This document shows, piece by piece, positions 41,477 through 64,000 of a stretch of 64,000 bases of DNA (its first letter is position 1; every line of letters starts with the position of its first letter). The stretch spans positions 93,235 to 157,234 of the forward strand of contig JAIDCJ010000009.1 in the NCBI GenBank assembly GCA_029055875.1, read 5' to 3'. The notes beneath the pieces are model-generated. The model was not told where the DNA came from and did not search any database. It saw nothing but the letters and a program-made list of their open reading frames with translations. The translations under genes and the position numbers were made by a program. The stretch comes from Clostridia bacterium. GTDB taxonomy: Bacteria; Bacillota; Clostridia; Christensenellales; Borkfalkiaceae.

Positions 41477-41495
41477 AAAAATTTTGGAGGTATAT

Positions 41496-41990
41496 ATGAT
41501 TTCATCACTTTTAGCGGAAGGTGAGCAGGCTGCTTCGGGAGCCGGTGCCGGTTTTGCAATTGCTATGGTCGGCGTTGCACTCTGCGTAATCCTTTGCGGA
41601 ATCGGTTCGGCGCTCGGGCTTTACAAGACGGGCACGGCGGCGGCAGGCGTATTGAGCGAGGCACCCAAAAAGTTCGGTAAGGTGTTCATGCTCGTGCTTC
41701 TTCCCGCAACGCAAGGTTTGTACGGCTTCGTTATCGGCATCATTGCATCCGGTTCGATTGCTCCGGAATTATCCATGGCGCAGGGCTGGGCAATGTTCGG
41801 TGCAGTTATGCCTATGGCAATTTCCGGTCTTATTACGGGCATTTTCCAAGGTAAATCCTCAGCCAACTGTATCTATGCGGCAGGCAAGCAGGATTCGCTT
41901 AGCTTCAAGCTCGTTATCTATCCCGCAATGATCGAGTTCTATGCAATTCTCGGACTCGTCATTTCCATTATGTTACTTCCCCTTGTATAA
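41496..41990 (+). CDS. ntpK: V-type ATP synthase subunit K (rotor ring), Na+-type
   Basis: 164 residues with four hydrophobic helices from two fused hairpins, the V-type proteolipid form. The start is the ATG at 41496, 5 nt after GGAGG; the ORF track's TTG at 41484 overlaps that site. Residues that bind Na+ in Enterococcus hirae NtpK are present in matching positions: LLPATQGLYGF (Leu, Thr, Gln), GIFQGK (Gln) and MIEFYAILG (essential Glu). The ring therefore probably carries Na+ rather than H+. Only the second hairpin carries the carboxylate, so each monomer should hold one ion. Confidence 0.93.
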   Translation: MISSLLAEGEQAASGAGAGFAIAMVGVALCVILCGIGSALGLYKTGTAAAGVLSEAPKKFGKVFMLVLLPATQGLYGFVIGIIASGSIAPELSMAQGWAMFGAVMPMAISGLITGIFQGKSSANCIYAAGKQDSLSFKLVIYPAMIEFYAILGLVISIMLLPLV

Positions 41991-41996
41991 AAGATT

Positions 41997-42584
41997 ATGA
42001 GCGAACAGGCAATCGTTGAAAGAATTATTTCCGACGCCGAGGAAGAGGCGCGGCAAATTATTTCGGATGCGGAGGAGAAAGCTAAGGCAACCCTTGCCGA
42101 GGCAAACGTCCGCGCCGAAAGAAACAAGCAGGGAACGGAAGCGGAAGTAAAAGCCAAGGCGCAGAGCATTTTCGACGGAAAGGCGGCTACCGCACGGCTT
42201 GACGGCGCAAAAATTCTGCTTGGTGAAAAGCGTGGCGTAATAGACGCGCTCTATTCCCGCGCACTTGAAAAGCTGCTTACTTTAAGCGAAAAGGAAACGC
42301 TCTCGCTCTGCACGCGGCTTCTTGCCGAATACGCCGAAGAGGGCGACGAATTGGTGTTTGCGGAAAATTTCCGCTATGCAAAGTCGGTTGCGGCTCTTCC
42401 GATCGTGAAAGAAAAAAAGTTAAAGATTTCAAAGGGGAACGCTGCGGTTGACGGCGGGTTCATACTCTCGGGAAAAAATTCCGATAAAAACCTTTCCTAC
42501 GGCGCTTTGCTTGCTATGGACAGGGAAGAACAACAAGCTCAAATCGCATCCGTTATATTTGATTCCGGTACATTGAATGGCTAA
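41997..42584 (+). CDS. ntpE: V-type ATP synthase subunit E (peripheral stalk)
   Basis: 195 residues. An N-terminal coiled coil (ERIISDAEEEARQIISDAEEKAKATL) is followed by a globular C-terminal half, as in NtpE/AtpE of V-type enzymes. It forms the outer stalk with the H/G subunit encoded at the operon start. The start is 6 nt after the subunit K stop, with no clear Shine-Dalgarno sequence, so coupling to K translation is likely. Its end overlaps the subunit C start by 8 nt. Confidence 0.88.
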   Translation: MSEQAIVERIISDAEEEARQIISDAEEKAKATLAEANVRAERNKQGTEAEVKAKAQSIFDGKAATARLDGAKILLGEKRGVIDALYSRALEKLLTLSEKETLSLCTRLLAEYAEEGDELVFAENFRYAKSVAALPIVKEKKLKISKGNAAVDGGFILSGKNSDKNLSYGALLAMDREEQQAQIASVIFDSGTLNG

Positions 42585-43557
42585 GGACGTATTGTTTACG
42601 AACGGCGTGATTGCCGTAAAAGAGACGCATCTCTTAAAAGACAAGATTTTCAAACTCTGCTCTGCGAGCGCAGAGGAGGCTTTGCGCGTCGCGCAGGAGA
42701 GCGGCTTCGGGAAAGGCGCGGAAGCGGCGTCCGTTTACGAGTACGAAAAGCTTGTTTCCGCAGACGAGGCGGATATCGACGCGTTTATCCGCGATTACGC
42801 ACCTTCGCGTGCGGAAGCGGCATATCTATTGTCCCCGCGTGATTTCCATAACGCCAAAGCGGCGGTAAAGGCGCGCTTCGGGGGGCTCAGCACGGAAAAT
42901 ATGCTCGCGCCCGCGGGGCTCATTCCCGCAGAGGAAATCGTTGACTGCGTGAATTCGGAAAATTACGCACGCTTAGGCGAGGTTTTAGGCGAAGCCGTGA
43001 AGGAAGCGGTTTCCTTGTTTTCGGACGAAACGCAAGCGGAGGCTTCGGGTGCGGAAATCGGAATGATATTTGAAAAGGCACTTTATCGCCATCTGCACGA
43101 GACTTCGGCAAAGATCGGACTTTTGAAAAAGCTGTTAACCACGAAAGCGGATATGACGAATATTTTAACCGCGCTTCGCTCAAAGGAAGCGGAATACGCC
43201 GCAAAGTGTTACGTTACGGGCGGAAAGCTTTCCGAAAAACAGCTCGCCTCGCTTTTTGAGGAAGATACCGAAAACGCGGTAAAGGCTTTCGAGCGTACGC
43301 CGTATTACGACTTCGTTAAAAAGTGTGTTACGGATAAGGCGGCGGGGCTTCCCTTAACGACTGCGGAACGCCTCTTGGAGAGCTACGAAACGGAGTATTT
43401 TTCCCAAAGAAAGTACGAGCTGCAAAAGAGCCAGCCGTTTCTCTATTATGTTTTCCGCCGTCGTGCGGAAAACGCCAACGTCAGAATTCTTTTCGTGTGT
43501 CTTCTGGCAGGCATGCAGGAAAGCGAGATAAAACGCCGTTTGCGCGCAATCGATTAA
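42577..43557 (+). CDS. ntpC: V-type ATP synthase subunit C (central-axle cap, subunit d)
   Basis: 326 residues, helical, with V-ATPase subunit C/d features such as LLSPRDFHNAKAAVKARFGG and the C-terminal RAENANVRILFVCLLAG. It is the socket joining the rotor ring to the D/F shaft. The ATG lies inside the end of the subunit E frame (8-nt overlap), indicating translational coupling. Length is near the family norm (320-350 residues). Confidence 0.9.
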   Translation: MAKDVLFTNGVIAVKETHLLKDKIFKLCSASAEEALRVAQESGFGKGAEAASVYEYEKLVSADEADIDAFIRDYAPSRAEAAYLLSPRDFHNAKAAVKARFGGLSTENMLAPAGLIPAEEIVDCVNSENYARLGEVLGEAVKEAVSLFSDETQAEASGAEIGMIFEKALYRHLHETSAKIGLLKKLLTTKADMTNILTALRSKEAEYAAKCYVTGGKLSEKQLASLFEEDTENAVKAFERTPYYDFVKKCVTDKAAGLPLTTAERLLESYETEYFSQRKYELQKSQPFLYYVFRRRAENANVRILFVCLLAGMQESEIKRRLRAID

Positions 43558-43571
43558 GGTATAGGTGTGGT

Positions 43572-43889
43572 ATGACGGGTAAAATAGCAATTATAGGCGA
43601 CGGCGACAGCATCATGGTTTTTCGGGCGGCGGGCGTTGCAACCTTCCCTGCGGAAAACGAGGGAAAGGCGCGTGAGGTGTTAAGAAAGGTCGCCAAGGAT
43701 TATCAGATTATTTTTCTCACCGAGGAGCTTGCAAAGCCTTTGGGTGAATTCTTAAAAAGGTTTGACGAAGAGCCTTATCCCGTGATTTTGAGCATTCCGT
43801 CCCAAAACGGCAGTACGGGCCACGGCACGGAGCTTTTGAAGGATGCAATGGATCGCGCCCTCGGCGTAGATATTCTATTTAATAACTGA
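43572..43889 (+). CDS. ntpG: V-type ATP synthase subunit F (central shaft)
   Basis: 105 residues beginning MTGKIAIIGDGDSIMVFRAAG, the standard subunit F opening, followed by the EN..KAREVLR and IIFLTEELAK strands of its Rossmann-like fold. It binds subunit D in the rotating shaft. ATG at 43572, preceded by AGGTG; the ORF track's start at 43497 runs into subunit C. Named by the E. hirae scheme, where this subunit is NtpG. Confidence 0.9.
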   Translation: MTGKIAIIGDGDSIMVFRAAGVATFPAENEGKAREVLRKVAKDYQIIFLTEELAKPLGEFLKRFDEEPYPVILSIPSQNGSTGHGTELLKDAMDRALGVDILFNN

Positions 43890-43905
43890 GTAGTAGGAGT
43901 TTTTT

Positions 43906-45669
43906 ATGGGCAAAACAGTAAAGATTTCCGGCCCTTTAATTATTGCGGAGGGCATGGCGGACTGCAAGATGTACGACGTCGTGCACGTTTCCGAAAAGGA
44001 GCTAATCGGCGAAGTTATCGAACTGCGCGGCGATAAGGCCTCCATACAGGTATACGAGGAAACGTCGGGGTTAGGCCCCGGCGAAGAAGTCGTTTCCACG
44101 GGCGAGCCTCTTTCGGTAGAGCTTGCTCCGGGGCTTATTTCGGGCATCTTCGACGGAATTCAGCGTCCGCTTACCGCGCTTTATCAGAAATACGGTGCGC
44201 GTATTTCAAGGGGCGTTTCGGTAAACAATCTCGACCGCCAAAAGAAGTGGCGTTTCTCGCCCCGCGTCAAGGCGGGCGACGAGGTCTCCGAGGGCGACGT
44301 TTTGGGCGTCGTTCAGGAAACGGAAATCGTAGAACACAGAATATTAGTCCCCAACGGCATGAAAGGAAAAGTCGTTTCCGTGGAAGAAGGGGATTTCAGA
44401 ATAGAAGATACGGTTGCAGTCATTAAAACTGCTTCGGGCAACAAAAAGGTGAGCATGCTCAGAAAGTGGCCCGTAAGAAAGGGCAGACCGTATAAAGAAA
44501 AGCTTTCGCCCGATAAGCCCATGGTTACGGGGCAAAGAGTTATAGATACTTTGTTCCCCATTTCCCGCGGCGGCGTTGCCGCCGTTCCCGGGCCTTTCGG
44601 AAGCGGAAAGACCGTCGTTCAGCACCAGCTTGCAAAGTGGGCGGACGCGGATATTATCGTGTACGTCGGCTGCGGCGAACGCGGAAACGAAATGACGGAC
44701 GTACTCAACGAATTCCCCGAACTCATTGACCCCAAGACGGGCGAATCGCTCATGAAGAGAACCATTCTCATTGCAAACACTTCGGATATGCCCGTTGCCG
44801 CGCGCGAAGCCTCTATCTATACGGGTATCACCATTGCGGAATATTTCCGTGATATGGGCTATAACGTGGCAATCATGGCGGACTCGACCTCGCGTTGGGC
44901 GGAAGCGCTGCGTGAAATGAGCGGACGCCTCGAAGAGATGCCCGGCGACGAAGGGTATCCCGCATACCTTGCAAGCCGTCTTGCGGAATTCTACGAGCGC
45001 GCGGGTATCGTAAAGCTTTTGGGCTCGACCCAGCGGACGGGCTCGGTTACCGCAATCGGCGCGGTTTCGCCTCCCGGCGGCGATTTGTCCGAACCCGTTT
45101 CGCAGGCAACGCTCAGAATCGTAAAAGTGTTCTGGGGACTTTCGGCTTCGCTTGCTTATAAGCGCCATTTCCCCGCGATCGACTGGCTCATCAGCTATTC
45201 GCTCTATGCGGATAAAATGCGTGACTGGTACGACGAGAACGTCAGCGTCGAATACGCGAAGTACCGTCAATTTATCATGACGGTTTTGCAGGAGGAAGCG
45301 GCACTCAACGAAATCGTAAGGCTCGTCGGTATGGACGCGCTTACCTCAAAGGACAGGCTTACCATGGAAACCGCGAAGATTATCCGCGAGGACTATCTGC
45401 ACCAGAACGCGTTCGACGAAGTGGATACCTATACTTCCATGAAAAAGCAATTCTTCATGTTGAAGCTCATTTACGAATTCGATACGTGCGCACGCGAAGC
45501 GGTAGCTTCATTCGCTTCACTCGACGATATTCTTGCAAGTAAGAGCAAGGAGAAGATAGGACGCGCCAAATATATCAGGGAAGAAAATCTTTCCGAATTC
45601 GACGCAATATTAAAACTCATGAGCACGGAATTCAAAGAAATCTGTCAGGGAGGGGAGGACGATGTTTAA
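43906..45669 (+). CDS. ntpA: V-type ATP synthase catalytic subunit A
   Basis: 587 residues. It has the P-loop [17 protein letters not shown] at about residues 229-245, the GER motif in [11 protein letters not shown], the Walker B/arginine region [19 protein letters not shown], and the A-subunit-specific insert between the N-terminal barrel and the nucleotide domain. It binds and hydrolyses or makes ATP. ATG 16 nt after the subunit F stop, preceded by TAGGAG. It overlaps subunit B by 8 nt. Full length. Confidence 0.97.
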
Positions 45670-47029
45670 GGAATACAAAACCATCCGCGAAGTCGTCGGG
45701 CCTCTTATGGTGGTAGACGGCGTCGAGGGCGTAACCTATAACGAGCTCGTCGATATTATCTGTCACGACGGCAGTATCCGCCGCGGCAAGGTGCTTGAAA
45801 TCAACCGCGATAAAGCGGTCGTACAGCTCTTTGAAAACTCGCAGGGCTTGCAGATTTCGGGCGCAAAGGCCCGCTTCACGGGGCACAGCCAGCAGCTCGC
45901 GTGCTCGCGCGATATGCTTGGGCGTGTGTTCGACGGTATGGGCAACCCCCGCGACGGCGGCGCACCCGTAATTCCCGAAAAGGTTTTGGATATCAACGGC
46001 GAACCGATCAACCCCGCGGCGCGCGACTATCCCGACGAGTTTATTCAGACGGGTATTTCCGCAATAGACGGACTTAACACCTTAGTTAGAGGGCAGAAGC
46101 TGCCCGTGTTCTCCATGAGCGGACTTCCCCACGCGGAGCTTGCGGCGCAGATTGCTCGGCAGGCAAAAGTACGCGGGAGCGAGAGTAAGTTCGCAGTCGT
46201 ATTTGCGGCAATCGGCATCACGTTCGAGGAAGCGCAGTATTTCGTAGACGACTTCAAAAAGACGGGCGCAATCGAAAGAACGGTGCTGTTCACCAACCTT
46301 GCAAACGATCCCGCGGTAGAGCGTATTTCCACGCCGCGTATGGCGTTGACCTGCGCGGAATACCTCGCGTTCACCTGCGGTATGCACGTCCTCGTTATCA
46401 TGACCGATATTACCAACTATGCAGAAGCCTTGCGTGAGGTCTCCGCCGCACGGCGCGAAATCCCCGGCAGACGCGGTTATCCCGGTTATCTTTATACCGA
46501 CCTTGCAACCATGTACGAACGCGCGGGCAGAATCCGCGGGTGCGAAGGCTCCATTACGCAGATTCCCATTTTAACCATGCCCGAGGACGATAAAACGCAC
46601 CCCATTCCGGACTTGACGGGCTACATTACCGAGGGGCAAATCATACTTTCGAGAGATTTGTATAAAAAGGGCATCAATCCGCCTATCGACGTATTGCCTT
46701 CTCTTTCCCGTCTGAAAGATAAGGGCATCGGCAAGGGCAAGACCAGAGAAGACCACGCCGATACCATGAACCAGCTTTTCTCTGCGTACGCAAGCGGAAA
46801 GGAAAACAAGGAGCTTGCCGCCATTTTGGGCGAGGCGGCGCTGTCCGATACCGATAAGCTGTACGCGAAATTTGCGGAAAATTTTGAAAAGGTGTATATC
46901 AATCAGGGCTTTGATGCAAACAGATCGGTAGAGGAAACGCTCGATACCGGCTGGGAGCTTTTGAAGATTCTTCCCGTAACGGAACTCAAACGTATCCGTC
47001 AGGCATATATCGATAAGTATCTGAAATAA
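45662..47029 (+). CDS. ntpB: V-type ATP synthase regulatory subunit B
   Basis: 455 residues. It has the B-subunit core with [20 protein letters not shown] in place of a catalytic P-loop, and [20 protein letters not shown] with [16 protein letters not shown] typical of the non-catalytic subunit. It alternates with A in the hexamer. The start codon lies inside the 3' end of ntpA (8-nt overlap) with GGGAGGGGAGGA before it. Length matches the family (about 455-465). Confidence 0.96.
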
Positions 47030-48234: not shown

Positions 48235-49854
48235 ATGTTAAATGCAACGTTTGAATTATTTATGTCGGAATACTTTTTGACGAAAGCAGTTCTCGGCAAG
48301 TATCTGGAAAACAGCGGGGAGCTTTTTCGGGCATTGGGGAAAATCTTTTTGATCCCGAACGGAGAGATCGAGAGATTATACCGTTTGTCCGAAAATGAAA
48401 CGGCAAAGGCGATTACCACCGAAAAAGAGTTTATGCAACATCAGAGGCTGCAAAAATACTCTATGCTCATAGGCTCGGCGAAGTCGTCCAATGCCGAATG
48501 GGAAGAGGTCGCCCGTATCAAAGGCAATGCAATTTTAACCGCGCAAAGCCGCAATTTGATTTTGGATGCGGACGCATCGAGGAACGTGGTTTATACCTGT
48601 CTTTCTTCGGCGGCAACCTGCGGCGTAATAAGTGCCATAAGGATTATGGGTATTTTACAATGCGAAGGGATTTTCCTGAGTAAGAACGAAACCGTTGGCA
48701 TGAAAACCCTGTCCAAGGCGGCGGACTGGAACGATAGCGTCAGTACGCTTGCTCTGTTGCATTATTGTAAAGCTACGCGTGAGTTTAATATGGCGCGTCT
48801 TCGTCAACAGGTTGCAAATACTCCGTTTGATGAGCTGTATCAAACTGCCGCCGCGGAATACGGCGAGGCGGATGCGGAGGAAATAGACGAGGTCAAGCTC
48901 TTGGATAAATCGTTTCATGCAGGCGTCCTGAAACGTGAAACTTACGATCCTAAGTACGCCAGAATCCTGTACAGTTTTGCGCTTTATTTCAAAGATAAAG
49001 AGAAAGCAGTATTTACGTTGAACAAGGAGCAGCTCTGTGCCATAAGCGATTTGCCTTTGAAGCTATCGCATGAAAGAATGTCGGCGGTAGATGCAAGCGG
49101 CGTGCAGAAGGTAACGGTGAAAAGAGAAGCGGAAATTTCTACGGTAACCCGTGCGCTGAAAAACTGTGATTTAAGAGGGCTTTCCTCTTACCGCCCGATG
49201 TGCCTTTGCTGCGAGTCGAAATACGTGTTGAATATGTATGCCAAGGCAATCGGAGCGAAAAATCCCGATACGCATATCGAAAGAATATACGTTGCGGAAT
49301 TAGAGGATTACGATCTTGAACCGACGCAGAACAACGTTTTCGTGCGCAGTATCGACGAAGACAGAGACAACCGTTTTCTGTTATTCTTCTACGGTGAAAT
49401 TTCGGAAAGAAAAAAGGATGCGGTAAAGAGCATTTTACAAAGTTTTCGCCGTGCGAAGTTCCACTTAAACAGCCCCAGCGTAACCCTCAATTTAAGCGCG
49501 GTATTGCCCGTATGTTTCTGCGACGAGCAAAATGCAAAATGGCTGAAACCCTACTGCGATGAAATACAGCTGAGCGGGGTTTCGCCCGACGAGATGCCCT
49601 TCGTCATTAAGAACATTCTTGCGGGCAAGCAAAAGCTTTACGGGGTGGGGGCAATCGATTTGATTGGCGATACAAAGGATGTGTTCAGCGGCTATGACGT
49701 TGACACGGCGGAACTGCTCATTGACGCGGCGGTACGCGCACGCAGAGAAAAGGGCGCAGTGATTACCTTATCGAGGGAAATGCTGCAGGAATATGCAGGT
49801 GATAGCGACAAACTGACGATAGGTTTCGGAGGTAGTACGTATGCAAGATACTAA
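48235..49854 (+). CDS. Sel1-repeat protein with degenerate AAA+ (Lon-like) C-terminus
   Basis: 539 residues, not matched to a named family. The middle region has a Sel1-type repeat (MGILQCEGIFLSKNETVGMKTLSKAA, then STLALLHYC). From about residue 310 the order of elements resembles an AAA+ domain: a P-loop position without GxxGxGK (RPMCLCCESKYVLNMYAKAIG), a Walker B-like strand (NNVFVRSIDEDRDNRFLLFF), and a sensor/lid stretch (FCDEQNAKWLKPYCDEIQLSGVSPDEMPFVIKNIL) that recalls Lon. It therefore looks like an ATPase fold that has lost nucleotide binding. It starts after GGAG and overlaps the VirD4-type ATPase gene by 14 nt, so the two products probably act together. The AAA+ call is inference. 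Confidence 0.6.
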   Translation: MLNATFELFMSEYFLTKAVLGKYLENSGELFRALGKIFLIPNGEIERLYRLSENETAKAITTEKEFMQHQRLQKYSMLIGSAKSSNAEWEEVARIKGNAILTAQSRNLILDADASRNVVYTCLSSAATCGVISAIRIMGILQCEGIFLSKNETVGMKTLSKAADWNDSVSTLALLHYCKATREFNMARLRQQVANTPFDELYQTAAAEYGEADAEEIDEVKLLDKSFHAGVLKRETYDPKYARILYSFALYFKDKEKAVFTLNKEQLCAISDLPLKLSHERMSAVDASGVQKVTVKREAEISTVTRALKNCDLRGLSSYRPMCLCCESKYVLNMYAKAIGAKNPDTHIERIYVAELEDYDLEPTQNNVFVRSIDEDRDNRFLLFFYGEISERKKDAVKSILQSFRRAKFHLNSPSVTLNLSAVLPVCFCDEQNAKWLKPYCDEIQLSGVSPDEMPFVIKNILAGKQKLYGVGAIDLIGDTKDVFSGYDVDTAELLIDAAVRARREKGAVITLSREMLQEYAGDSDKLTIGFGGSTYARY

Positions 49855-51520
49855 CAAGATTCTAACCGGATATGAAAACACGAGGTACGTTCACTATGCG
49901 GATTTATCGGAACTTCCGAATACGGTGGCATATGCCGAACTCGGGAAGAGGGCACCGTCGGGCGTTTTGAAGGCTTGCCGGCAGGTAGACGGAAAACTCG
50001 TACAAACCTATACGGGGCAGGAGAACCACGTAGGGGTTATTGCGGCAACGAGGCTCGGGAAAACGACCTCGTACGTTGTACCTACCATTCTCTCGTTCGC
50101 CCAACAGCCGATGAAGAGGAGCATGATTATTTCCGATCCGAAGGGCGAGATTTATCGCCTCACGTCCGAAACGCTCCGAGGGGCGGGGTATCGGGTGGTA
50201 CTGCTGAATTTCCGTGATTACGTTCACTCGGAGTGTTGGAATCCGCTTACCCCGATTTTCCGCAAATACCGTAAGGCGGCTCAGATATACGACGAAGTCG
50301 GCGTTGTTGATACCGATAACGGGCCGCGCAACGTCTTCCGTGAAATCGTCTACGACGACGAGAAAGAACTGGAACAGGCAATCGCACTCGCCAAGGCAAT
50401 GCTGACGGACGAGGTCGGAAACGATATCGATACGTTGGCGGCAATGCTTATGCCCACCCAAAATACGAAAGACCCTTATTGGGAAGACAGCGCGCGTGAG
50501 CTTCTGAAAGCCTTTCTGTGGGCAATGCTCGAAGATTCGGATAAGGAGGATAACCCCATAACGGAGGATACCTTCTCGTTCAGTACGATTCTCAGATTGC
50601 AGACGACAATTCACTCGGGCAAAAACATGAGCTTTGAAGACGGCGGATATTTTACGGAGCGGGGTGCGGATTCCCGCGCGTATCAGCTGGCTAAGAATAC
50701 GGTCATTGAAAACGGCGACGTAACGAGCGCCTGCATTCTGGCGGTTTTCAATACGGGGATATCGGTTTTCCGTGATTGCGCAATGCGCCTTGTAACAAGC
50801 TGTAATTCGTTTGATTTTTCGGCGTTTGACGAGGGCCCTGTGGCAATTTATATTGACTACCGCGACGAGGTAAAGGTGCATTACCAAATTATTTCGCTGT
50901 TTATTCAGGACGCATACCGCTATCTGATTGAGCAAGCGACCAAGAAGGCGAACGGAAAACTTGAAGTGCCGTTCTACTTCATTCTCGATGAGTTCGGGAA
51001 TTTCCCCGCCATTAAGGATTTTGAAACGACGATCTCGGCCTGTGCAGGGAGAAATATTTGGTTCATATTAATTATTCAGTCCTACGCACAGCTTAACAGC
51101 GTTTACGGAGAGAACGTCGCCGAAATCATCAGGGATAATCTCAATATGCATATTTTCTTCGGCTCGAATAATCCCGATACGCTGGAATCCTTCTCGCGCG
51201 AGTGCGGTCAGCAAACGCGTATTTCTCCGCTCAGCGCATTGAACGGGCAAGGGGCGGATATCGATACGTACCAAATTGAAACGATCCCGCTCGTGCCCAA
51301 GAGCATGCTGTCGCATTTTCAGCCCGGTGAATGCATTATTACCGAGGCGAACAGCGGATACGTTATGTTTTCCAAACTTGAAAGGTATTATCTTTGCGAC
51401 GAGTTCAAAAACTTAAAGCTCGCTTCCGAGAAGGAATACAAGTGCAGCGTAAATCCCTTTGAAAAACGTTATACCTACACGGTGTCGGCCAAGAAAAAAC
51501 ACAGTCTGTTTGACTTTTAA
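49841..51520 (+). CDS. Orphan VirD4/TraG-type ATPase (coupling-protein family)
   Basis: 559 residues. Walker A is AATRLGKT at 68-75, where coupling proteins usually have GPTRSGKG/T; the following VVPTILSF and SMIISDPKGE match the family. Walker B is FILDEFGNFP at about 379-388, and the conserved IIQSYAQLNSVYG (sensor) follows. Coupling proteins feed DNA or protein into type IV secretion systems as hexamers. This one has no N-terminal membrane helices, and no relaxase, VirB4 or other conjugation gene is in the window, so its role may differ from conjugation. Its start overlaps the upstream gene by 14 nt, and an acidic winged-helix protein follows after 18 nt. Confidence 0.85.
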   Translation: MQDTNKILTGYENTRYVHYADLSELPNTVAYAELGKRAPSGVLKACRQVDGKLVQTYTGQENHVGVIAATRLGKTTSYVVPTILSFAQQPMKRSMIISDPKGEIYRLTSETLRGAGYRVVLLNFRDYVHSECWNPLTPIFRKYRKAAQIYDEVGVVDTDNGPRNVFREIVYDDEKELEQAIALAKAMLTDEVGNDIDTLAAMLMPTQNTKDPYWEDSARELLKAFLWAMLEDSDKEDNPITEDTFSFSTILRLQTTIHSGKNMSFEDGGYFTERGADSRAYQLAKNTVIENGDVTSACILAVFNTGISVFRDCAMRLVTSCNSFDFSAFDEGPVAIYIDYRDEVKVHYQIISLFIQDAYRYLIEQATKKANGKLEVPFYFILDEFGNFPAIKDFETTISACAGRNIWFILIIQSYAQLNSVYGENVAEIIRDNLNMHIFFGSNNPDTLESFSRECGQQTRISPLSALNGQGADIDTYQIETIPLVPKSMLSHFQPGECIITEANSGYVMFSKLERYYLCDEFKNLKLASEKEYKCSVNPFEKRYTYTVSAKKKHSLFDF

Positions 51521-54760: not shown

Positions 54761-57700
54761 ATGAGACACAATCAGGACAAGATTCAAAAGACTGAAAGCG
54801 GTTGTCTAAGGTCTATGAAGTTGGTACGAATCATACTGGCTGTTTTCTTCATGCTCTTTATAGGCGCGGCAATATTCTGCGGTGCATTTTTATTCAAGTC
54901 GGATAAGGGGAACGAGCCGGTGCACGCACTCACGGGCGATGGTTCGCAAGGCAATCCGTATAAAATTTCCACGCCGGAAGACTTAACGTCTTTAGCGAGC
55001 AACGTAAATGCGGGAACTACGTATAAGGATAAATACTTTGAGATGGAGAACGATATTGACCTGAAGGGCAAAATATGGGTTCCCATCGGCAGTACTGCAC
55101 CCAGTGGCTATGGCAAAAACTTCCAGGGACATTTTGACGGGAAGAATCACACCATTTATAATATGAACGTCACCCAAACGGCTAGCTACAAGGGCTTGTT
55201 TGGCTGCGCCTATAACGCCACGTTTGAAAACGTGACGATTGAAAATCCCGTATTTGCTACTACGGCAGGTGCGCTGGCGGGCGGCGAATATACCGGCGCA
55301 ATCGTCGGACGCCTCGTGCTGGCAAGCGTAAGCAAGGTTGATTACAATTCCTACGTAAAAAATTGCCACTTAAAAAACGGTCAATTGTTATCATCGGGCA
55401 GCTACGTGGGCGGTTTGGTCGGCCGCGTGACCGCTCCCAGCGGCAACACTTTCAAAATGGAAAACTGCACCGTAACGGGCGGTGTGATAAAAGGCAACAA
55501 CTACGTGGGCGGTTTGATTGGCTATCTCGACGGCGCGAAGGCGGGGGATCTCGGCAAGAAAGACGCCCAAGCTACAATCATTGAAAACTGCACCGTAAAA
55601 GGCTCGGGAACGAACAAAGTGCCCACCTACATATTTGGGGCTTCAAGCAACGTCGGCGGAATTATCGGTTACGCTACGAGTACGGCATATACGATAGACG
55701 CAGGCGGTACCGAGAGGGCAGGCGTATACGTTTCAAAATGCGCGTCCACGGCTACGGTTGTGGCAAAGTCGGATTCTGCCGGCGGAATTTGCGGATATGC
55801 AGCCGGTGTGAAAATAGACCAGTGCTATAACACGGGCGCTGTAAGCAATATATTAGGAAACTATACCGGCGGAATTTGCGGTATCATTATGACTGCGGCA
55901 GTCAGAGTAGAGAACTGCCTCTCCATGGGAGATGTTTCTGCTAGTAACCACTCTACCGCTGGTGCGCAAGCGGGCGGTATCGCCGGCGACGTAAAAATTG
56001 CCGGTAGCAGCATTGAAAAATGCGTGGTCACGGGAAATATTTTGGCAAGCCCTTCCAGTAGCGGTAACGGCTGGGCGGGCGGTATCGTCGGACTGGGTGA
56101 AACATCCGTCGCGGTTGGCGGATGCGTCGTTGCCTCCGAGCATATTTCGGGGCAAACCAGTAGCTCGGGGGCTTCACTCTCTTCGCCTTTCGTATGCGCT
56201 AACAACGTTACCGCTACAGTTCTTCCTACAACGATTAAGGATTTGGACGTAAATCTGAATAATAACCGTTCACCCATAGATGCACCCTATAACTATTATA
56301 ATGCAGATATGATTTTGGGCGCACGCAAAGCAAACTCGGCAACGGGAAATTACCCCGCATGGGCAAGTAACGTTTCGGGCGTGCCGGTCAGTCTGAGCGA
56401 GATGACGACTACTCGTTCCATCTACGACCATCTGAAATGGGATTTTACCAGCGGTGTCCGCGTCTGGAATCATTCGTCAAGCCAGAACGAAGGTATTCCT
56501 TATCTGGATTCTTTAGGAGAGCCCGAGAAGCCTTACGGACATAAGACCAACCCCATTGAAATTCAAACGGCAGCGGACTTTTATGATCTCCGCACGAAAG
56601 TAAACGCAAGCGCGGCAGCCGATAGATATCTCTACGCGGCTCAATACTTAAAACAGACTGCCGATTTAGATTTGTCTGCCATGACGGAGGCGAATATCAT
56701 CGGAAGTACCAATGAATACTCGTTCAGAGGGAATTACGACGGCGGCAACCACAGATTGCTCAACGTGGATTTCACAACCAAGAAGGGGAATACCGCTATC
56801 TTCGGCGTTGTTCTAAATGCGTCTTTCAGAAACGTCGTTGTGGAAAGCCCTAAGGTTTTCGTTACGGGAAAAGTAAGCAACGTCGGCATTCTGGTTGCTC
56901 TGGCATATAACAATCTCTATATGGAAAACTGCGCCATCATCGGCGGTCAGTTAATTGCACAGCAGGCTACGAACGTCGGTGCGCTCTGCGCAAACGATAC
57001 AGCGGGCGGCAACCACTTTATCAGGTGCTTCTCGTCCGCCTCGGTCGACGGCGGAACAAACGTGGGCGGCCTCGTCGGCAATGCGTTCGGCACGCGTATT
57101 GAGCGGTGCTATACCTCGGGCAACGTAAAATCTACCACGCTTACCGGTGTTAACTTATACGTGGGCGGCTTGGTCGGGCAAATGTCGCATGCTACAAATA
57201 CTGCCTATCTCCTCTACGAATACGATTACACGAAAAGCGAAAACGATCCTAAGGGTTCCACTATTAAGGATAATAGCGGATGCACGGTTGTCGGCTCCAC
57301 CATTAAGGATAGTTATGCGAAATGTGACGTTACGGTAAGTCTTTCAGGTAACTACAACATTACCGCGGGCGGTATCCTCGGTTATGCGTACGGAAAAACC
57401 ACAGTTTCAAACTGTTATTTCAACGGCAACCTCTCGGCAACTGCAACCGGAGGAAGTGCAGCCAATACCAGCGGTGCGTTTGCGGGCGGCATTATCGGTA
57501 TGTCCTTCTACGGGGACGTCGCTATCGATCATTGCTTAAGCGCCATTCAAAAAGTAACCGCTTCCTCAACCCGCGGTTACCTCGGCGTCGGCTATTTCAA
57601 TACGTATTATATTCCGTTCGTCAGTAGCGGCACCGCTGCGGCGCCCGTGAAACCGCACGAAAGCGAGGACAGTTACTATATTGAGGTGTCTATGCCTTCC

Positions 57701-60700
57701 GTATCCAATGCGGCGGGAATCAACACCGGAACTAAGATAACGCTCAACAAAGCGGACGACGGCAACGGACTGTTAGCCGTAACGGACGGTTCCGTGTTTA
57801 AGGCGGATGCACTCGGCTGGAATATGTCAACCGTTTGGGAGCGCAGTAATGCGGTAAACGACGGCTTCCCGATGTTAAAGGGACTTATTATCGACTCTAT
57901 CGAGCTCGTGCAGGTACTCAACAGAGCGCAGGAGTATCAGGCATCCGATTGGAGCGAAGAAACCTTCGGCCATCTTCAGGACCTCATTACGGCTGCAAGA
58001 GAGGAGATGGTCAAGAACACCCTTACGAATGCAAGTCAAGAGGAATACATCACCGATATCAACAACGCCATCGATAGCCTCCGTGCAGATAAGAAAGATC
58101 TGAAAAACTATTACGATATCGTGATTCGGGAAATCGCGCCGAATGCGGACTTCTACACGAATTACAGCATGGTCGACAGCGTTATGAAAAGCGCGCAGAC
58201 CATCGTAGAGGATAACACCAGCAGATACCGCAACGGCGACGTGAAAACCATTTACGATGCGTTGGTGCTGGCTGTCAACAGTCTGCGGGTAGATAAAACC
58301 GAACTCAATAAAGCAGTCGAGCAGGCGAACGCAATCATGCTCAAGCCCGATTCTTATCTTGCGGCGGACGTGCTTGCGCTGAAAAACGTGCTCGACAAAG
58401 CCGTTGAGGTAAACAATAACCCGTCCGCTTCCGTCGACGACGTAATCGCCGCAACGAAAGCCATGCAGGCGGCTCTCGAAAAAATGAAGCTCGATAAATC
58501 GAAGCTGATCGATGCAATTATCGGTGCGTACAATAGCATCGGCGTGAAAGCAGAATATATCGAACTTTCCTCGACCTTTAAGCTCAACGAAGAGGACAGG
58601 CTTGATTCTAAGAAGCTTGAAAACTACGATGCGTTTGAAAAGGCGTTAAATGCGGCGGTAGCCGTTACCAAAAAAGCGGACGCCACCTCGAAGGAAATTT
58701 CAACCGCCGTGTTCAATCTGAACGTCGCGCTCAACGATTTGGCACTCAATAAAAAAACTTTGCAAAATCTTTGCTCAGAAGCGGCGTCGTCCTTGCTCAA
58801 CGAATCGTACTACACGAAATCTAGCGTAGAGGCGTTGAAAACTGCGTATGCTGCGGCACAAACGGAACTCAAACTCTCCGTCACGAAGGACAATTTGATC
58901 GAGCGTTCCGAAGCGCTTGATAAAGCAACGCAGGATTTGGATAGTGCCATCAGCGCGCTCGGGCTCGATAAATCCGAATTGGAGCAGTTGCTCAAATGGA
59001 CAGAGGATGAACTCAAAGAGGATATCTACACGGGTGATTCGTTAAAAGCACTTCAGAATGCGTACGATAACGGTAAAAAGGTATTTGACAGCACGTCCGC
59101 TACACAGGAAGACATCCGCAACGCCGTTACCGCTCTGGACGACGCCATTCAAAACCTCACAATCAACCTCGCACACTTGAAGAGTTTAATTGACGAGGCT
59201 ACGGCTATTCTGGATAACGATAATTCCAAGCTGTATTCAAACTTAGACGCTTTGCAAGACGCAAGAGACAAGGCACAACCCGTTTACAACGACTATAATG
59301 GTGGACAAAGTAGCGAAGAGAACACCGTAAAAATCCAGAAGGTTAAAAATGCAACCAAAGCATTGCAGACGGCGCTCGATAATCTTTCGGTTAGCACCAA
59401 GGAATTGAACGACTACGTCACTTGGGGTACGTCTCAAACCAATCAGAATTACGTAAACGATATCGTTTATACGCCGGAGAGCGCAAAGGCATTCAGAGAT
59501 GCGGCGCAGGAGGTAAAGGATAAGGGCGTCCTCATGCTCACGAAGGAGGAGGTAATTACCTATACCCTCAAACTCAGAGCGCTGTACAATGCATTAAAAC
59601 CCAATAAAGATGCGCTTACCAAGCTCGTTGCCGAAGTCAACGTCATGACGAATACGAAGTATCGTCAGGATAACGACGGCAAGTGGATTTTAGACGACGA
59701 CGGCAACATGAAGGTGTTCGTCATTTACAGTCAGGATACGTGGGACAAGCTTCAAGACGAATTGAAGAAGGCGAACGACGTTATTCTTGATAATGACGCA
59801 ACGGTGGACGAAGTTACCGAGGCACGCACGAACCTGATTGCCGCCCGCGATAAACTCGTCGTAGATACCTCCGAGCTTGAGGAGAGAATGAAGAAAGCCG
59901 AAGGGCTTCTTGCTCAGACGGATATTTATACTGCAACGTCGTTAACTGCGCTTCAAACCGCTTACGACGAGGCGGACAAACTTCTTAAGGGCTCAGGACT
60001 TACGTTAGAGTCCGTACAGGAGAAGCTGGACGCTCTCCTTGCGGCAATCAACGGCTTGAAAGCGGATCTTACTGCCTTGCAAAACCGTATCAATGAAGGC
60101 AATAATTTGTTGAAACAATACGGGGCTTATTATAGCACGGCTTCCGCCAACAAGCTTCAAAGCGTCATCGATCAGGCTACCGAGCTTATCAAGACGGATC
60201 TTGATACGGGCAGCGTTACGCTTCTCGTCAATTTAATCAACTCGGCAATCGACGGTCTCGTAATCGTTACGGACGGGCTGAAAGATCTCATTAAAGACTT
60301 TAACGCCTTGGAAAAAGATTTTATTACCGACGCAACCTATAACGCGGCAAAAACGGCAGCAGATGCCGCAAGAAATCTTTTGAAGGGCACAATCAAAGTT
60401 GACGAGTATGCAAGTGCGTTTACGGCTTTGAAATCTGCGCTGAACGGTATTAAGCCGGATATGGCGAAGTACAAAGCGTTTATTGCAGAATGCGAAAAGG
60501 AAACCAAGCGTTCTTGCACGGATGAGAGCAAAGCGGCGCTTCAAGCAGTCATTGATAGCGCGAAAGAGATTTCTACCGATACCGATAGCACTTACGACGA
60601 CGTCATTGCATCCGTTCACGCGCTGCAAGCTGCGGTAGACGCGCTTGTACCGACAAAAGACGGCTTGGCAGACCTTATTAAAGCGACGCAGGAATATTTG

Positions 60701-62251
60701 TCAACCGCCGTTCCCGAACTCGGTGATAACGTAACGTACGCCGACTGCTTCACGGAAGACAGCTACGCAGTGCTGAATGCCGCGCTTCAAAAGGGTATCA
60801 AAATCAACGATGCGGGCGACGCGTCGTTAGACGAAGTGGAAGATGCGATGGCAGCCATCACCAATGCAAAGGATGCGCTCGTTCTGGATAGGTCTTTGTT
60901 GCAGTATTTAATTAAAGAGTGCGATGAAAACTACGGCGCGGATTATGCGGATTATTTTGAAGTATCGAGCTACATGGCGTTCACAACGCAGCTTACTGCC
61001 AGCAAAACGGTAGTAGCCAAAGCGAATCTTACCATTGATGAATACGCTAAATCCTATGAGGCATTGCTTAACGCAAGAAACGCGCTTGAATTCGATACTA
61101 GCGCGCTCGATAAGATTATCGCGCGTGCAGAGGAAAAGGTAACGGAACAGCAGACGTCGCTGAAATATTCCGCTGCATCCTTCAAAACGCTTACCGATAA
61201 TTTGCAAACTGCAAAAACCTATCGTGATAACACGAATAGGGATCCTTCCCAATCTAATGGAGTATGCAGTAACCTGTTAGCGGCAATCAGCGGTCTCGTT
61301 GATATCAGCAAGCTTGATCCTGCTATTTCAACGGTTCAGGCGTTTGTAAACAAGGGCAACAATATTTCAAACGGTCATTATTATTCAAGCGGCTCGTTCA
61401 AAGCGCTTCAGGATTTGTTGGCTCGTGCAATCGCGCTTAAAACCGGTAATCCCACACAAAGCGAAGTCGATTACGTAGTTGACAAGTTAACCAACTATGA
61501 AGACGTATTGTTGGACGTCACCGACGACAAACAATACAGTATCGAACAGCATACCTTCATGGGTAGAGAAAAATATAAGTATACCGAGGCAAGCTGGGCG
61601 CCCTACGCCGAAGCCGTTGAAAAGTTTGACGAGCTGATTGAGCTTGCAAAACATGAGGTAACGCGTGAAGAGATTGCCGCGGCGAGAGCAGCCGTTAAAG
61701 CGGCCTATGATAATTTGAAGGAAGATCCCGATGCGACTTTGGGATTGTTCCAAGTGATTGAGAAAAACAAGACCTTCCAGTTTATCGATGGCGAGGGTAA
61801 TGCGGTTAACTTCGGCGAACACGTATACGATGCGAACAAACCTACTTATCTTACGAACATAGCCTTGGGTGACAGTATTTCGGACATCCTAGCGCAGTTC
61901 GTAAATGAGGGTATTAAGGTCTACGATTCAAAGGGCGTGGAAATTACCAACTTATCGCAGGTGATTGCTACCGGTATGGTGTTAGAGATTCTTGACGGTA
62001 ACACCGTAATTGACGCCATCACGCTTGTAATACGCGGAGATGTGGATGGCAACGGAGAAATCGACGTTTTCGATAAGGCACAGTTAAACGCTTATACGAA
62101 CGGTACGGTGTTAACTGGGGCATTCTTGATGGCGGCGGACGTAGACGGAAATGGTGAAATCGACGTTTTCGATAAGGCACAGTTAAACGCTTATACGAAC
62201 GGTAACGCGCCGATTTTTGCAGGATTAAGCGTAAAAGGAGCGGCAAACTAA
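54761..62251 (+). CDS. Secreted GLUG / FIVAR-repeat protein with C-terminal dockerin (2,496 aa)
   Basis: Starts after AGGAGG. Residues ~21-45 are a hydrophobic export helix. Residues ~58-1040 are beta-solenoid-like with many GLUG-type motifs (YVGGLVGRV, AGGICGYAAG, VGGLVGNAFG), in two blocks each opening with a variant of ITTAADLYDLRTKVNA...DIDLKG. Residues ~1046-2330 contain about 18 FIVAR-type three-helix repeats of 62-85 residues, a rod-like architecture often found in adhesins. A small beta domain (ALGDSISDILAQFVNEGIKVYD) precedes a canonical dockerin with two intact Ca2+ loops, GDVDGNGEIDVFDKAQ and ADVDGNGEIDVFDKAQ. No catalytic motif was seen. The stop overlaps the start of the next gene (TAATG), so the two are translationally coupled. 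Confidence 0.88.
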   Translation: MRHNQDKIQKTESGCLRSMKLVRIILAVFFMLFIGAAIFCGAFLFKSDKGNEPVHALTGDGSQGNPYKISTPEDLTSLASNVNAGTTYKDKYFEMENDIDLKGKIWVPIGSTAPSGYGKNFQGHFDGKNHTIYNMNVTQTASYKGLFGCAYNATFENVTIENPVFATTAGALAGGEYTGAIVGRLVLASVSKVDYNSYVKNCHLKNGQLLSSGSYVGGLVGRVTAPSGNTFKMENCTVTGGVIKGNNYVGGLIGYLDGAKAGDLGKKDAQATIIENCTVKGSGTNKVPTYIFGASSNVGGIIGYATSTAYTIDAGGTERAGVYVSKCASTATVVAKSDSAGGICGYAAGVKIDQCYNTGAVSNILGNYTGGICGIIMTAAVRVENCLSMGDVSASNHSTAGAQAGGIAGDVKIAGSSIEKCVVTGNILASPSSSGNGWAGGIVGLGETSVAVGGCVVASEHISGQTSSSGASLSSPFVCANNVTATVLPTTIKDLDVNLNNNRSPIDAPYNYYNADMILGARKANSATGNYPAWASNVSGVPVSLSEMTTTRSIYDHLKWDFTSGVRVWNHSSSQNEGIPYLDSLGEPEKPYGHKTNPIEIQTAADFYDLRTKVNASAAADRYLYAAQYLKQTADLDLSAMTEANIIGSTNEYSFRGNYDGGNHRLLNVDFTTKKGNTAIFGVVLNASFRNVVVESPKVFVTGKVSNVGILVALAYNNLYMENCAIIGGQLIAQQATNVGALCANDTAGGNHFIRCFSSASVDGGTNVGGLVGNAFGTRIERCYTSGNVKSTTLTGVNLYVGGLVGQMSHATNTAYLLYEYDYTKSENDPKGSTIKDNSGCTVVGSTIKDSYAKCDVTVSLSGNYNITAGGILGYAYGKTTVSNCYFNGNLSATATGGSAANTSGAFAGGIIGMSFYGDVAIDHCLSAIQKVTASSTRGYLGVGYFNTYYIPFVSSGTAAAPVKPHESEDSYYIEVSMPSVSNAAGINTGTKITLNKADDGNGLLAVTDGSVFKADALGWNMSTVWERSNAVNDGFPMLKGLIIDSIELVQVLNRAQEYQASDWSEETFGHLQDLITAAREEMVKNTLTNASQEEYITDINNAIDSLRADKKDLKNYYDIVIREIAPNADFYTNYSMVDSVMKSAQTIVEDNTSRYRNGDVKTIYDALVLAVNSLRVDKTELNKAVEQANAIMLKPDSYLAADVLALKNVLDKAVEVNNNPSASVDDVIAATKAMQAALEKMKLDKSKLIDAIIGAYNSIGVKAEYIELSSTFKLNEEDRLDSKKLENYDAFEKALNAAVAVTKKADATSKEISTAVFNLNVALNDLALNKKTLQNLCSEAASSLLNESYYTKSSVEALKTAYAAAQTELKLSVTKDNLIERSEALDKATQDLDSAISALGLDKSELEQLLKWTEDELKEDIYTGDSLKALQNAYDNGKKVFDSTSATQEDIRNAVTALDDAIQNLTINLAHLKSLIDEATAILDNDNSKLYSNLDALQDARDKAQPVYNDYNGGQSSEENTVKIQKVKNATKALQTALDNLSVSTKELNDYVTWGTSQTNQNYVNDIVYTPESAKAFRDAAQEVKDKGVLMLTKEEVITYTLKLRALYNALKPNKDALTKLVAEVNVMTNTKYRQDNDGKWILDDDGNMKVFVIYSQDTWDKLQDELKKANDVILDNDATVDEVTEARTNLIAARDKLVVDTSELEERMKKAEGLLAQTDIYTATSLTALQTAYDEADKLLKGSGLTLESVQEKLDALLAAINGLKADLTALQNRINEGNNLLKQYGAYYSTASANKLQSVIDQATELIKTDLDTGSVTLLVNLINSAIDGLVIVTDGLKDLIKDFNALEKDFITDATYNAAKTAADAARNLLKGTIKVDEYASAFTALKSALNGIKPDMAKYKAFIAECEKETKRSCTDESKAALQAVIDSAKEISTDTDSTYDDVIASVHALQAAVDALVPTKDGLADLIKATQEYLSTAVPELGDNVTYADCFTEDSYAVLNAALQKGIKINDAGDASLDEVEDAMAAITNAKDALVLDRSLLQYLIKECDENYGADYADYFEVSSYMAFTTQLTASKTVVAKANLTIDEYAKSYEALLNARNALEFDTSALDKIIARAEEKVTEQQTSLKYSAASFKTLTDNLQTAKTYRDNTNRDPSQSNGVCSNLLAAISGLVDISKLDPAISTVQAFVNKGNNISNGHYYSSGSFKALQDLLARAIALKTGNPTQSEVDYVVDKLTNYEDVLLDVTDDKQYSIEQHTFMGREKYKYTEASWAPYAEAVEKFDELIELAKHEVTREEIAAARAAVKAAYDNLKEDPDATLGLFQVIEKNKTFQFIDGEGNAVNFGEHVYDANKPTYLTNIALGDSISDILAQFVNEGIKVYDSKGVEITNLSQVIATGMVLEILDGNTVIDAITLVIRGDVDGNGEIDVFDKAQLNAYTNGTVLTGAFLMAADVDGNGEIDVFDKAQLNAYTNGNAPIFAGLSVKGAAN
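62057..62204 (+). repeat. Direct repeat encoding the two dockerin halves
   Basis: Two 49-bp segments (62057-62105 and 62156-62204), beginning GAAATCGACGTTTTCGATAA, are identical at DNA level and lie 99 bp apart in the same frame. Each encodes EIDVFDKAQLNAYTNG. The bases just outside differ at synonymous sites. Confidence 0.95.
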
Positions 62252-64000
62252 TGAAAACAACGAATATGTTTAGAAAAATTAAATATCTCTTTTTAGCTGT
62301 TGCATTCTGCCTGATTGCTGCAATCGCTTTCATCGTGCCTTCGTCTTTGAAAGTGGAAAAAGACGCTAAGGCAGCCGACGGACTTACCTTTACATCGTAC
62401 AGTAGTCTTTCTCAAATTAAAACGAATGCGGCGAATAAAGAATTTATTGTGTACGGTGTGATATCAAATAACAGCGAATCTCTGTTCGGAGTAGATTTTC
62501 AGATAAATATTGATTCAAATGTTTTTGAATTTAAGGAATATATGACTCCGGCAAAGATAGCAGCCGCGCTAAGTGATTCTTCGCTATCGAATGCACTCAA
62601 TGCAACAGAGAACGTAACGAGGCACACCGATACAAGTGTGGTATGTTCAGTTGATAATAACTTTCAACCTATTACGGCAAGCACGTTTGTTATAGGCGGA
62701 TACAAAATCGCCGTGAAATCCGGCGCAACGTTATCAGGCAGTTCAACTGTCACCGTAACCGGAGTTAAAATTCCGAATATGCTTGGTCAAGCCGTAACAT
62801 TCACTTCGGCGGGCACAAGTATGTCGATAAGTTTCGTTCCGCCCTCAACCGCTTGTGATATCACGAATCTTACCAGCACGCAAAGCGGCGTAACCATCAC
62901 AAAAGACGGAAGTAATTTTAAGGCTGAGGTGCCGTATTCCGTAAGCACCTTAAACACTTCCAACTCCATCCTGAAGGCAACCGTAAGCGCAGGGGCTACT
63001 GCTACGTATTCGCCGAGCAACCCGGCGTTAACGGTAGGTCAAACCCAAACGATTACGATTACCGTAACGGCGGAAGACGGCGTAACCAAGAAAACGGCTA
63101 CATTAAGCGTTACGCGTAAGGCGGACGAGGAAGCAAAAACGCTTTCCGCACTGACCTTTAAAAACGGAAGTACGGAATTGCTTTCAAAATCGGCAAGCGA
63201 TTTGGCTTCGGGCGGCGATTTCAACATAGAGGATGAAATTGCCTATGCGGATAAGGACAATCTGTCCGTCACCACTTCAAAAAACGGAACGTATTCCACG
63301 GTTCAAATCAGTGTAGACGGAACGTCCAAATATAGCGGTGCGGCTACGGAGGCGAATAAAACGCAATCGCTTTCCGGCTTGGCGGCAGGCGATCACACGC
63401 TTACCGTAACCGTAAAATCGGAAACGGGTGAAAGCACGCAATATACGGTAAAATTTAAGATTGCTGAGGATTCTTCTGGCACTGGTCCTATCAATCCTAC
63501 CAATCCTACAAATCCTTCTAATCCTACCGAACCGGGTTTGCCGGATGAGAACGGCGCTGTCTTTAAGCCTACGTTAAAGTCAAATCCAACGTTCACGGGT
63601 AAGCCGATTGACATTAAAAGTTTGCTCGACGGCTTCAACAGCACGACGATGGAGATTTCGGGCGATGCTACGGTTACGAAGGCAGGCTCGTACAGCGTTA
63701 CCATTACGTTGAAAGACGCTGCGCACACTTGGAAAGATAAACCTGTAAACGCTGCAAAGAATATCGGACTTGTTGTTCCGCTTGCAGACGGTGCTTCTTT
63801 CTCGATTCCTTTTGAAATTCAGCCTTACAAAATCCCTGCTACGGCATGGAAAAACGTTAACGGCGGCGTACCGAAGCTCGACGGCGTACCTGCGGATATT
63901 CTTGGTTATATCAGTTTTGAATATACCAACAAAGACGGTGAAACGGTCGCTCTTGAAGACATGGTAGTTGGCGAAGAATATACCGCAACTCCGGTCCTTG
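62251..64000 (+). CDS. Secreted cohesin-like / cadherin-like beta-sandwich protein, 5' part
   Basis: Open frame from ATG 62251 to the window end (583 codons, no stop), absent from the ORF track because it is incomplete. AAAAGGAG lies before the start, which overlaps the preceding stop (TAATG). Residues 10-30 are a signal segment with a likely peptidase site at DAKA/ADG near residue 41. Residues ~44-205 form a predicted beta-sandwich with cohesin-like strands (GVDFQINIDSNVFEFKEY, TFVIGGYKIAVKSGATL). Two cadherin-like beta-sandwiches follow (~210-300 and ~304-395), then an Asn/Pro/Thr linker (PINPTNPTNPSNPTEPG) and an Ig-like repeat. By analogy with the gene at 30396, a C-terminal membrane anchor may lie downstream; not visible here. 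Confidence 0.78.
   Translation, partial: MKTTNMFRKIKYLFLAVAFCLIAAIAFIVPSSLKVEKDAKAADGLTFTSYSSLSQIKTNAANKEFIVYGVISNNSESLFGVDFQINIDSNVFEFKEYMTPAKIAAALSDSSLSNALNATENVTRHTDTSVVCSVDNNFQPITASTFVIGGYKIAVKSGATLSGSSTVTVTGVKIPNMLGQAVTFTSAGTSMSISFVPPSTACDITNLTSTQSGVTITKDGSNFKAEVPYSVSTLNTSNSILKATVSAGATATYSPSNPALTVGQTQTITITVTAEDGVTKKTATLSVTRKADEEAKTLSALTFKNGSTELLSKSASDLASGGDFNIEDEIAYADKDNLSVTTSKNGTYSTVQISVDGTSKYSGAATEANKTQSLSGLAAGDHTLTVTVKSETGESTQYTVKFKIAEDSSGTGPINPTNPTNPSNPTEPGLPDENGAVFKPTLKSNPTFTGKPIDIKSLLDGFNSTTMEISGDATVTKAGSYSVTITLKDAAHTWKDKPVNAAKNIGLVVPLADGASFSIPFEIQPYKIPATAWKNVNGGVPKLDGVPADILGYISFEYTNKDGETVALEDMVVGEEYTATPVL

Follow-up and report, generated by a model that had tools for sequence, protein, structure and literature searches.

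A probable two-gene docking cassette joins a dockerin-tailed giant protein to a transmembrane receptor in a Clostridia bacterium

Cohesin and dockerin form one of the strongest protein plug-and-socket systems known; its most familiar examples are complexes of cellulose-degrading enzymes, and discussion of it nearly always concerns enzyme assembly. The window we analyzed, a stretch of 64,000 nucleotides from a Clostridia bacterium of the family Borkfalkiaceae (assembly GCA_029055875.1, contig JAIDCJ010000009.1, forward-strand positions 93,235 to 157,234), contains two loci with dockerin-tailed proteins. At locus 2, our main subject, the gene for a giant protein with GLUG and FIVAR repeats (the client, P0001) is followed directly by the gene for a membrane protein with a cohesin-like domain (the anchor or receptor, P0002). 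The non-cellulosomal dockerins of Clostridium perfringens have FIVAR next to the dockerin, as P0001 does. In hydrolases of that species, cohesin and dockerin interact pairwise between proteins (PMC12997984). As at locus 2, these pairs consist of a single cohesin and a single dockerin with no scaffoldin, and their cohesins (2w1n, 2jh2, 2vo8) are fold matches; however, the C. perfringens cohesins are carried by secreted glycoside hydrolases, whereas here the domain belongs to a membrane receptor that is dedicated to one client and encoded by the gene immediately downstream, and the client is no enzyme. Locus 2 appears to represent a variant of non-cellulosomal pairing and not a cellulosome, with one dedicated client at a time, also in relatives.

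Other described systems share parts of this plan. "NonSLH" anchoring scaffoldins with a C-terminal transmembrane (TM) helix, and monovalent adaptors with one cohesin and one dockerin, have been described (PMC11557425); the anchors here likewise combine a cohesin-like domain with a C-terminal TM helix, and protein P0003 of locus 1 resembles a monovalent adaptor, but here there is no surrounding cellulosome, each receptor has one gene-coupled client, and the receptor of locus 2 has a cytoplasmic tail of 530 residues. The Limousia mucinolysome also belongs to animal-gut bacteria and holds dockerin proteins on the surface through an anchoring cohesin; it differs in its classical multi-cohesin scaffolds carrying carbohydrate-active enzymes (CAZymes) and in its sortase anchoring, none of which is present here (PMC12997984). 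In single-cell genomes of cockroach-gut Christensenellales, hidden Markov model matches to cohesin and dockerin were reported as "cellulosome components"; the pattern of a few per genome in uncultured gut Firmicutes is similarly rare, and we found no client–receptor pairing described there (PMC10266427). In the open-access literature we came across no description of cassettes in which an adhesin-like giant and its single receptor are gene-coupled, nor of a comparable surface system combining FIVAR or GLUG with dockerin. The comparison suggests that few-per-genome cohesin and dockerin matches in gut genomes should not be taken as cellulosomes, and that the modules may serve these small-genome, uncultured Clostridia as a general means of displaying one large surface protein per receptor, with clients as diverse as adhesin-like giants, subtilases and MACPF proteins.

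The client and its coupled receptor

The features of locus 2, all on the plus strand, are as follows.

54761-62251, +, client gene P0001: open reading frame of 2,496 residues with signal peptide, two GLUG-repeat blocks, FIVAR, X-like module and dockerin
54929-57940, +, GLUG-repeat region of P0001, about residues 57-1060 (Pfam Glug 25.8 bits, 4 stretches; limits approximate)
57998-61765, +, FIVAR-repeat region of P0001, about residues 1080-2335 (Pfam FIVAR 92.4 bits, 6 stretches; limits approximate)
61844-62035, +, X-like module upstream of the dockerin, residues 2362-2425 (alignment and profile search)
62036-62203, +, dockerin of P0001, residues 2426-2481; both halves DVDGNGEIDVFDKAQLNAYTNG
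62235-62240, +, AAGGAG ribosome-binding site for the anchor, within the last client codons; same sequence in the relative G094
62249-62253, +, TAATG stop/start overlap of client and anchor
62251-64000, +, anchor gene P0002, continuing to window-equivalent 65766; complete on the contig, 1,171 residues
62377-62850, +, cohesin-like N-terminal domain of P0002, residues 43-200 (AlphaFold2 model and Foldseek search of the PDB)
62851-63480, +, cadherin-like repeats of P0002, residues 201-410 (Pfam Cadherin-like 26.7 bits, 2 stretches)
63481-63558, +, Pro/Asn/Thr-rich linker of P0002, residues 411-436 (limits from alignment)

The canonical C-terminal dockerin that a first-pass annotation had assigned to the 2,496-residue GLUG/FIVAR protein is borne out by Pfam, where Dockerin_1 scores 27.5 bits over residues 2426-2478, above the cut-off of 22.9. 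It has two F-hand calcium-binding repeats with DxDxNxExDxxD in both loops, and it matches solved dockerins, among them a serine-protease dockerin (8x39, 3.7e-10) and that of the adaptor scaffoldin ScaB (4uyq, 3.8e-4). The X-like module ahead of it has an outline common to both dockerin proteins of locus 1 by alignment and profile search. At the DNA level the two dockerin halves are identical at 61 of 69 nucleotides, with the final 48 fully identical, which suggests that they were homogenized by recent gene conversion or duplication; the dockerin halves in G094 likewise resemble each other. Both halves carry V10, F11, N17, A18 and G22, and such near-identical recognition residues would fit the type I dual binding mode. 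The full client sequence contains neither an LPxTG motif nor a C-terminal TM helix, and its GLUG and FIVAR content suggests adhesion.

The client stop codon (TAA, 62249-62251) and the anchor start codon (ATG, 62251-62253) share one base with AAGGAG ahead, so the overlap with a downstream secreted-protein gene that had been read from the window is real. That gene had been visible only up to position 64,000, and the C-terminal membrane helix to be looked for beyond this point was found in the full-length gene at residues 621-639, followed by KKR, a positively charged cytoplasmic flank. The whole protein consists of a signal peptide, the N-terminal domain, the cadherin-like repeats (which had also been proposed, and which Pfam recognizes), the single TM helix and a cytoplasmic tail of 530 residues, which is coiled-coil-like and 40% E/K/R/Q; no LPxTG motif accompanies the helix and the long tail in its C-terminal part. 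The membrane anchor expected of the full-length gene is present, whereas further cohesin-like domains are not: there is one, not several. A sortase-anchored surface protein was ruled out as an explanation, with LPxTG absent from all proteins of locus 1 and locus 2.

Locus 2 is probably a docking cassette of two genes in which the client dockerin is held by the cohesin-like domain of a dedicated receptor. P0001 would be exported by means of its signal peptide without an anchor of its own, and its C-terminal dockerin would bind calcium and plug into the single cohesin-like domain of the translationally coupled P0002. The cadherin-like repeats would raise this domain off the membrane, to which the one TM helix would fix P0002, with the long coiled-coil-like tail in the cytoplasm. 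In this way a dedicated receptor would keep the giant GLUG/FIVAR adhesin-like protein at the cell surface without a covalent link.

The receptor may do more than anchor. Compared with its G094 counterpart, the last 311 residues of the P0002 tail are 67% identical, the cadherin-like repeats 66% and the cohesin-like domain 50%, and this well-conserved tail end hints at a partner inside the cell. Because the tail is 530 residues long and its last 311 residues are better conserved than the cohesin-like domain, the receptor could connect an adhesin outside the cell with a partner inside it. We put forward tentatively, as a doubtful extension, that such proteins are transmembrane dockerin receptors and not passive anchors, and that clients and receptors in the family form swappable cassettes with their own recognition codes, gained and lost as units. 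The C-terminal end of P0002, an MBG-like domain with TM helix and tail, is also found in about eleven large proteins of the genome G007 (L005-L018) and in a protein of 2,183 residues on contig 17 of the same genome as P0002 (L048:3162-9713); judged from these sequences, it is a display module shared at the C-terminus by proteins whose heads vary.

Pairing in relatives

Conservation of the gene pair in related genomes, which had been proposed as a check, was found in G094 (CAMUBY01, "uncultured Clostridia bacterium"), which retains both loci with their gene order. Its locus 2 encodes a client of 2,436 residues ending in a dockerin and an anchor of 1,062 residues that is 59% identical to P0002 and overlaps the client by 4 nucleotides (ATGA); its locus 1 encodes a giant, an adaptor of 799 residues with a dockerin above the cut-off, and an anchor of 1,113 residues. 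A single-sequence search of the genome contigs gave no match, and in an alignment-based contig search the G094 contig CAMUBY010000005 was the sole match.

The pairing as such is more widespread. We surveyed 398 genomes of the family and 103 of the genus. In the genus, a Pfam dockerin is present in 8 genomes, a Pfam cohesin in 6 and both in 5 (p 4e-6); the corresponding numbers for the family are 25, 18 and 10 (p 4e-9, ignoring shared ancestry), with one to three dockerins per dockerin-bearing family genome. In all ten family genomes with both, dockerin and cohesin lie a short distance apart or share a reading frame, and a cohesin gene adjoins about 15 of the 22 C-terminal-dockerin loci, an approximate count made by eye. 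The clients of the paired loci are unrelated: subtilase, MACPF, VWA and giant repeat proteins. The recurrence of independent client–cohesin pairs in genus and family supports the earlier proposal of a modular system of matched client and receptor, and chance neighborhood was rejected on this census.

The pairs take several forms. In G134 and G033 a subtilase/RCC1 client is followed by a three-cohesin protein, with a 4-nucleotide overlap in one and a 6-nucleotide gap in the other, and a similar three-cohesin receptor follows an 18-nucleotide gap in G195, where the client is cut by the contig end and the pair is probably of the subtilase type. A MACPF client precedes a protein of 363 or 313 residues with a C-terminal TM helix in G125 and G365 (the receptor cohesin being assigned by Pfam in the former, by eye in the latter), and a client with cohesin and dockerin precedes a cohesin-TM protein of 268 residues in G111. 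The cohesin proteins of G035, G149 and G086 are lipoprotein-like. Small TM receptors follow the dockerin-tailed MACPF/perforin-domain proteins at L045:8662-13317 and L107:100-4749. No adjoining cohesin gene was seen for C-terminal dockerins in G153, G047 (two loci), G174, G219, G285 (contig 34) and G204 (contig 115), where some contigs are short, and none neighbors the dockerins in N-terminal position of G177, G289, G204 (contig 54), G021, G190 and G296. The proteins at L102-L106 and L108 make up a second dockerin class within the family, with the dockerin near the N-terminus and no neighboring cohesin.

The N-terminal domain of the receptor

In a Foldseek search of the PDB with the AlphaFold2 model of the P0002 N-terminal domain, the first 28 matches were all cohesins (best E 1.8e-5), including non-cellulosomal ones from C. 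perfringens and Archaeoglobus fulgidus. Because the PDB holds many other beta-sandwich families besides cohesins, these fold matches give good, if not final, support for the cohesin identity of the modeled domain. In relatives, the receptors in the corresponding position are recognized by the Pfam cohesin model. The label "cohesin-like" given in the first pass was right by this fold search, though the domain is invisible to Pfam; since Pfam does not recognize it, the claim is that it works like a cohesin, based on its fold. Exactly three X-dockerin modules and three such cohesin-like domains are present in this genome, of which 4% is missing, and all of them lie inside the window.

Several observations weigh against the cassette. 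The Pfam cohesin (PF00963) gave no match to the anchor N-terminal domain (P0008) at E up to 10, no Pfam cohesin exceeds the cut-off anywhere in the genome, a profile-profile comparison of the P0002 domain with the Pfam cohesins of the genus was not significant, and sequence searches of the PDB with the P0002 anchor and with P0003 identified no cohesin. The model is of moderate confidence (predicted local distance difference test, pLDDT, 60.8; predicted template modeling score, pTM, 0.63), was built from two sequences, P0002 and its G094 orthologue, and was made with no control domain folded. The model of a locus-1 N-terminal domain is poor (pLDDT 48), and its top matches, type II cohesins at 1.6e-3, are mixed with integrins; for these domains the assignment as cohesins is weaker, with a model that only leans towards type II. 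The locus-2 pair is known in just two genomes, its cohesin domain not being found beyond G094 in the 301 family genomes searched, except for one marginal match, and some seven of the family's loci with a C-terminal dockerin are without an adjoining cohesin.

The lack of Pfam recognition also leaves room for P0002 to be a membrane adhesin in its own right, Ig-like in its N-terminal domain and merely co-transcribed with the client, whose dockerin would bind another partner, for example on another cell or the same protein. This would agree with the occurrence of the MBG-like/TM/tail end in many G007 proteins and one adhesin-like protein of this genome, away from known dockerins. However, cohesins top the fold search, its positional counterpart in relatives is a Pfam cohesin, and this genome has no other cohesin candidate for the P0001 dockerin; we regard an independent adhesin as unlikely.

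The locus-1 relay and the recognition residues

Locus 1, about which the same plan had been claimed, contains these features.

6599-27874, +, giant client P0007: 7,091 residues; C-terminal X-module and degenerate dockerin at 27425-27871
27949-30327, +, adaptor P0003: cohesin-like N-terminal domain at 28090-28665; C-terminal X-module and degenerate dockerin at 29878-30324
30396-33761, +, anchor P0004: cohesin-like N-terminal domain at 30528-31100, five cadherin-like repeats, TM helix at 33438-33494

The plan of client and receptor does recur, but P0003 has both a cohesin-like domain and a dockerin, and locus 1 is a three-protein relay and not a simple pair: the giant would dock by its dockerin to the adaptor, and the adaptor by its own to the anchor, one link more than at locus 2. 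The N-terminal domains of P0003 and P0004 are related to each other (32% identity, 2e-25), and the full sequences of P0007, P0003 and P0004 contain no LPxTG. As had been noted, the dockerins differ between the loci, canonical at locus 2 and, in P0007 and P0003, with a second half that lacks the calcium-binding Asp pattern; the P0003 dockerin scores only 15.2 bits in Pfam. The gene order of locus 1 also occurs in another genus (G347, G376; partly G069). In G347 it holds an extra protein of 359 residues (L067:6391-7470) with an N-terminal TM helix, Cys-rich repeats and a C-terminal cohesin-like domain. The C-terminal end of P0004 (EKPQQPVNVEVKITGCGDSDGYYKTKK) forms a short conserved cytoplasmic motif, without a single difference between this genome (G000) and G094.

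The X-modules and dockerins of locus 1 show opposite patterns. X-modules are more similar between orthologues (58, 69 and 48% identity) than within a genome, where giant and adaptor are 33-35% identical, with the exception of the G347 adaptor; dockerins, conversely, are more similar within a genome (44/47/57%) than between orthologues (40/43, 37/30 and 32/25%); in Fisher tests this reversal has p 0.006 for G000-G094, and 0.18 and 0.05 for the other pairs. The changes shared within a genome include the dockerin recognition positions 10, 11 and 17 (PMC6780208), which read A/K/S in G000, T-S/V-L/N in G094 and G/G/G in G347. In the locus-1 cohesins, changes within a genome cluster correspondingly at one loop (columns 128-143 of the alignment, picked after the data were seen). 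The locus-2 dockerin, with V/F/N at these positions, stands apart at 17-37% identity. Because the locus-1 dockerins covary within a genome, including at these positions, and the locus-2 dockerin stays outside this pattern, separate specificities of the two loci, which had been proposed earlier, are likely and indirectly supported. The dockerins of giant and adaptor are, on this sequence evidence, in concerted evolution within locus 1 only, which favors one code for locus 1, common to both, and another for locus 2. The within-genome covariation makes locus 1 a suitable case for deciphering the recognition code, and gene-coupled pairs would be ready-made, naturally matched cohesin–dockerin sets.

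The X-like module and dockerin present in all three dockerin proteins could also mean that the loci are cross-reactive, with three dockerins and three cohesins forming a common pool and the giants of both loci sharing anchors. We think this improbable: the recognition positions differ (V10, F11 and N17 against A10, K11 and S17), there is no concerted evolution of the locus-2 dockerins with those of locus 1, and the cohesins of one locus show no sequence relationship to those of the other. That the client would sit on a scaffold shared with glycoside hydrolases, as in a cellulosome or mucinolysome, might be entertained for dockerins and cohesins in a probable gut lineage of Clostridia with a GH16 gene adjoining locus 1, yet it is very improbable, as the genome has no multi-cohesin scaffoldin, each protein has one cohesin-like domain, only three dockerins exist and none is on an enzyme (P0001 and P0003 match no enzyme family, and P0007 is repeat-rich by reading), and the GH16 protein has no dockerin. 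The cellulosome was ruled out with neither such a scaffoldin nor dockerin-bearing carbohydrate-active enzymes in the genome, and the mucinolysome with neither multi-cohesin scaffolds carrying CAZymes nor sortase anchoring.

The GH16-family protein, encoded directly after locus 1 (34040-35695), is secreted and has three Big_2 repeats; G094 has a similar gene in the corresponding position (L039:6752-8587). The region 48235-51520, flanked by a V-type ATPase operon (39503-47029) on one side and locus 2 on the other, encodes a VirD4/TraG-type coupling protein (49841-51520) and a protein of 539 residues without a Pfam match, and may be the remnant of a conjugative element.

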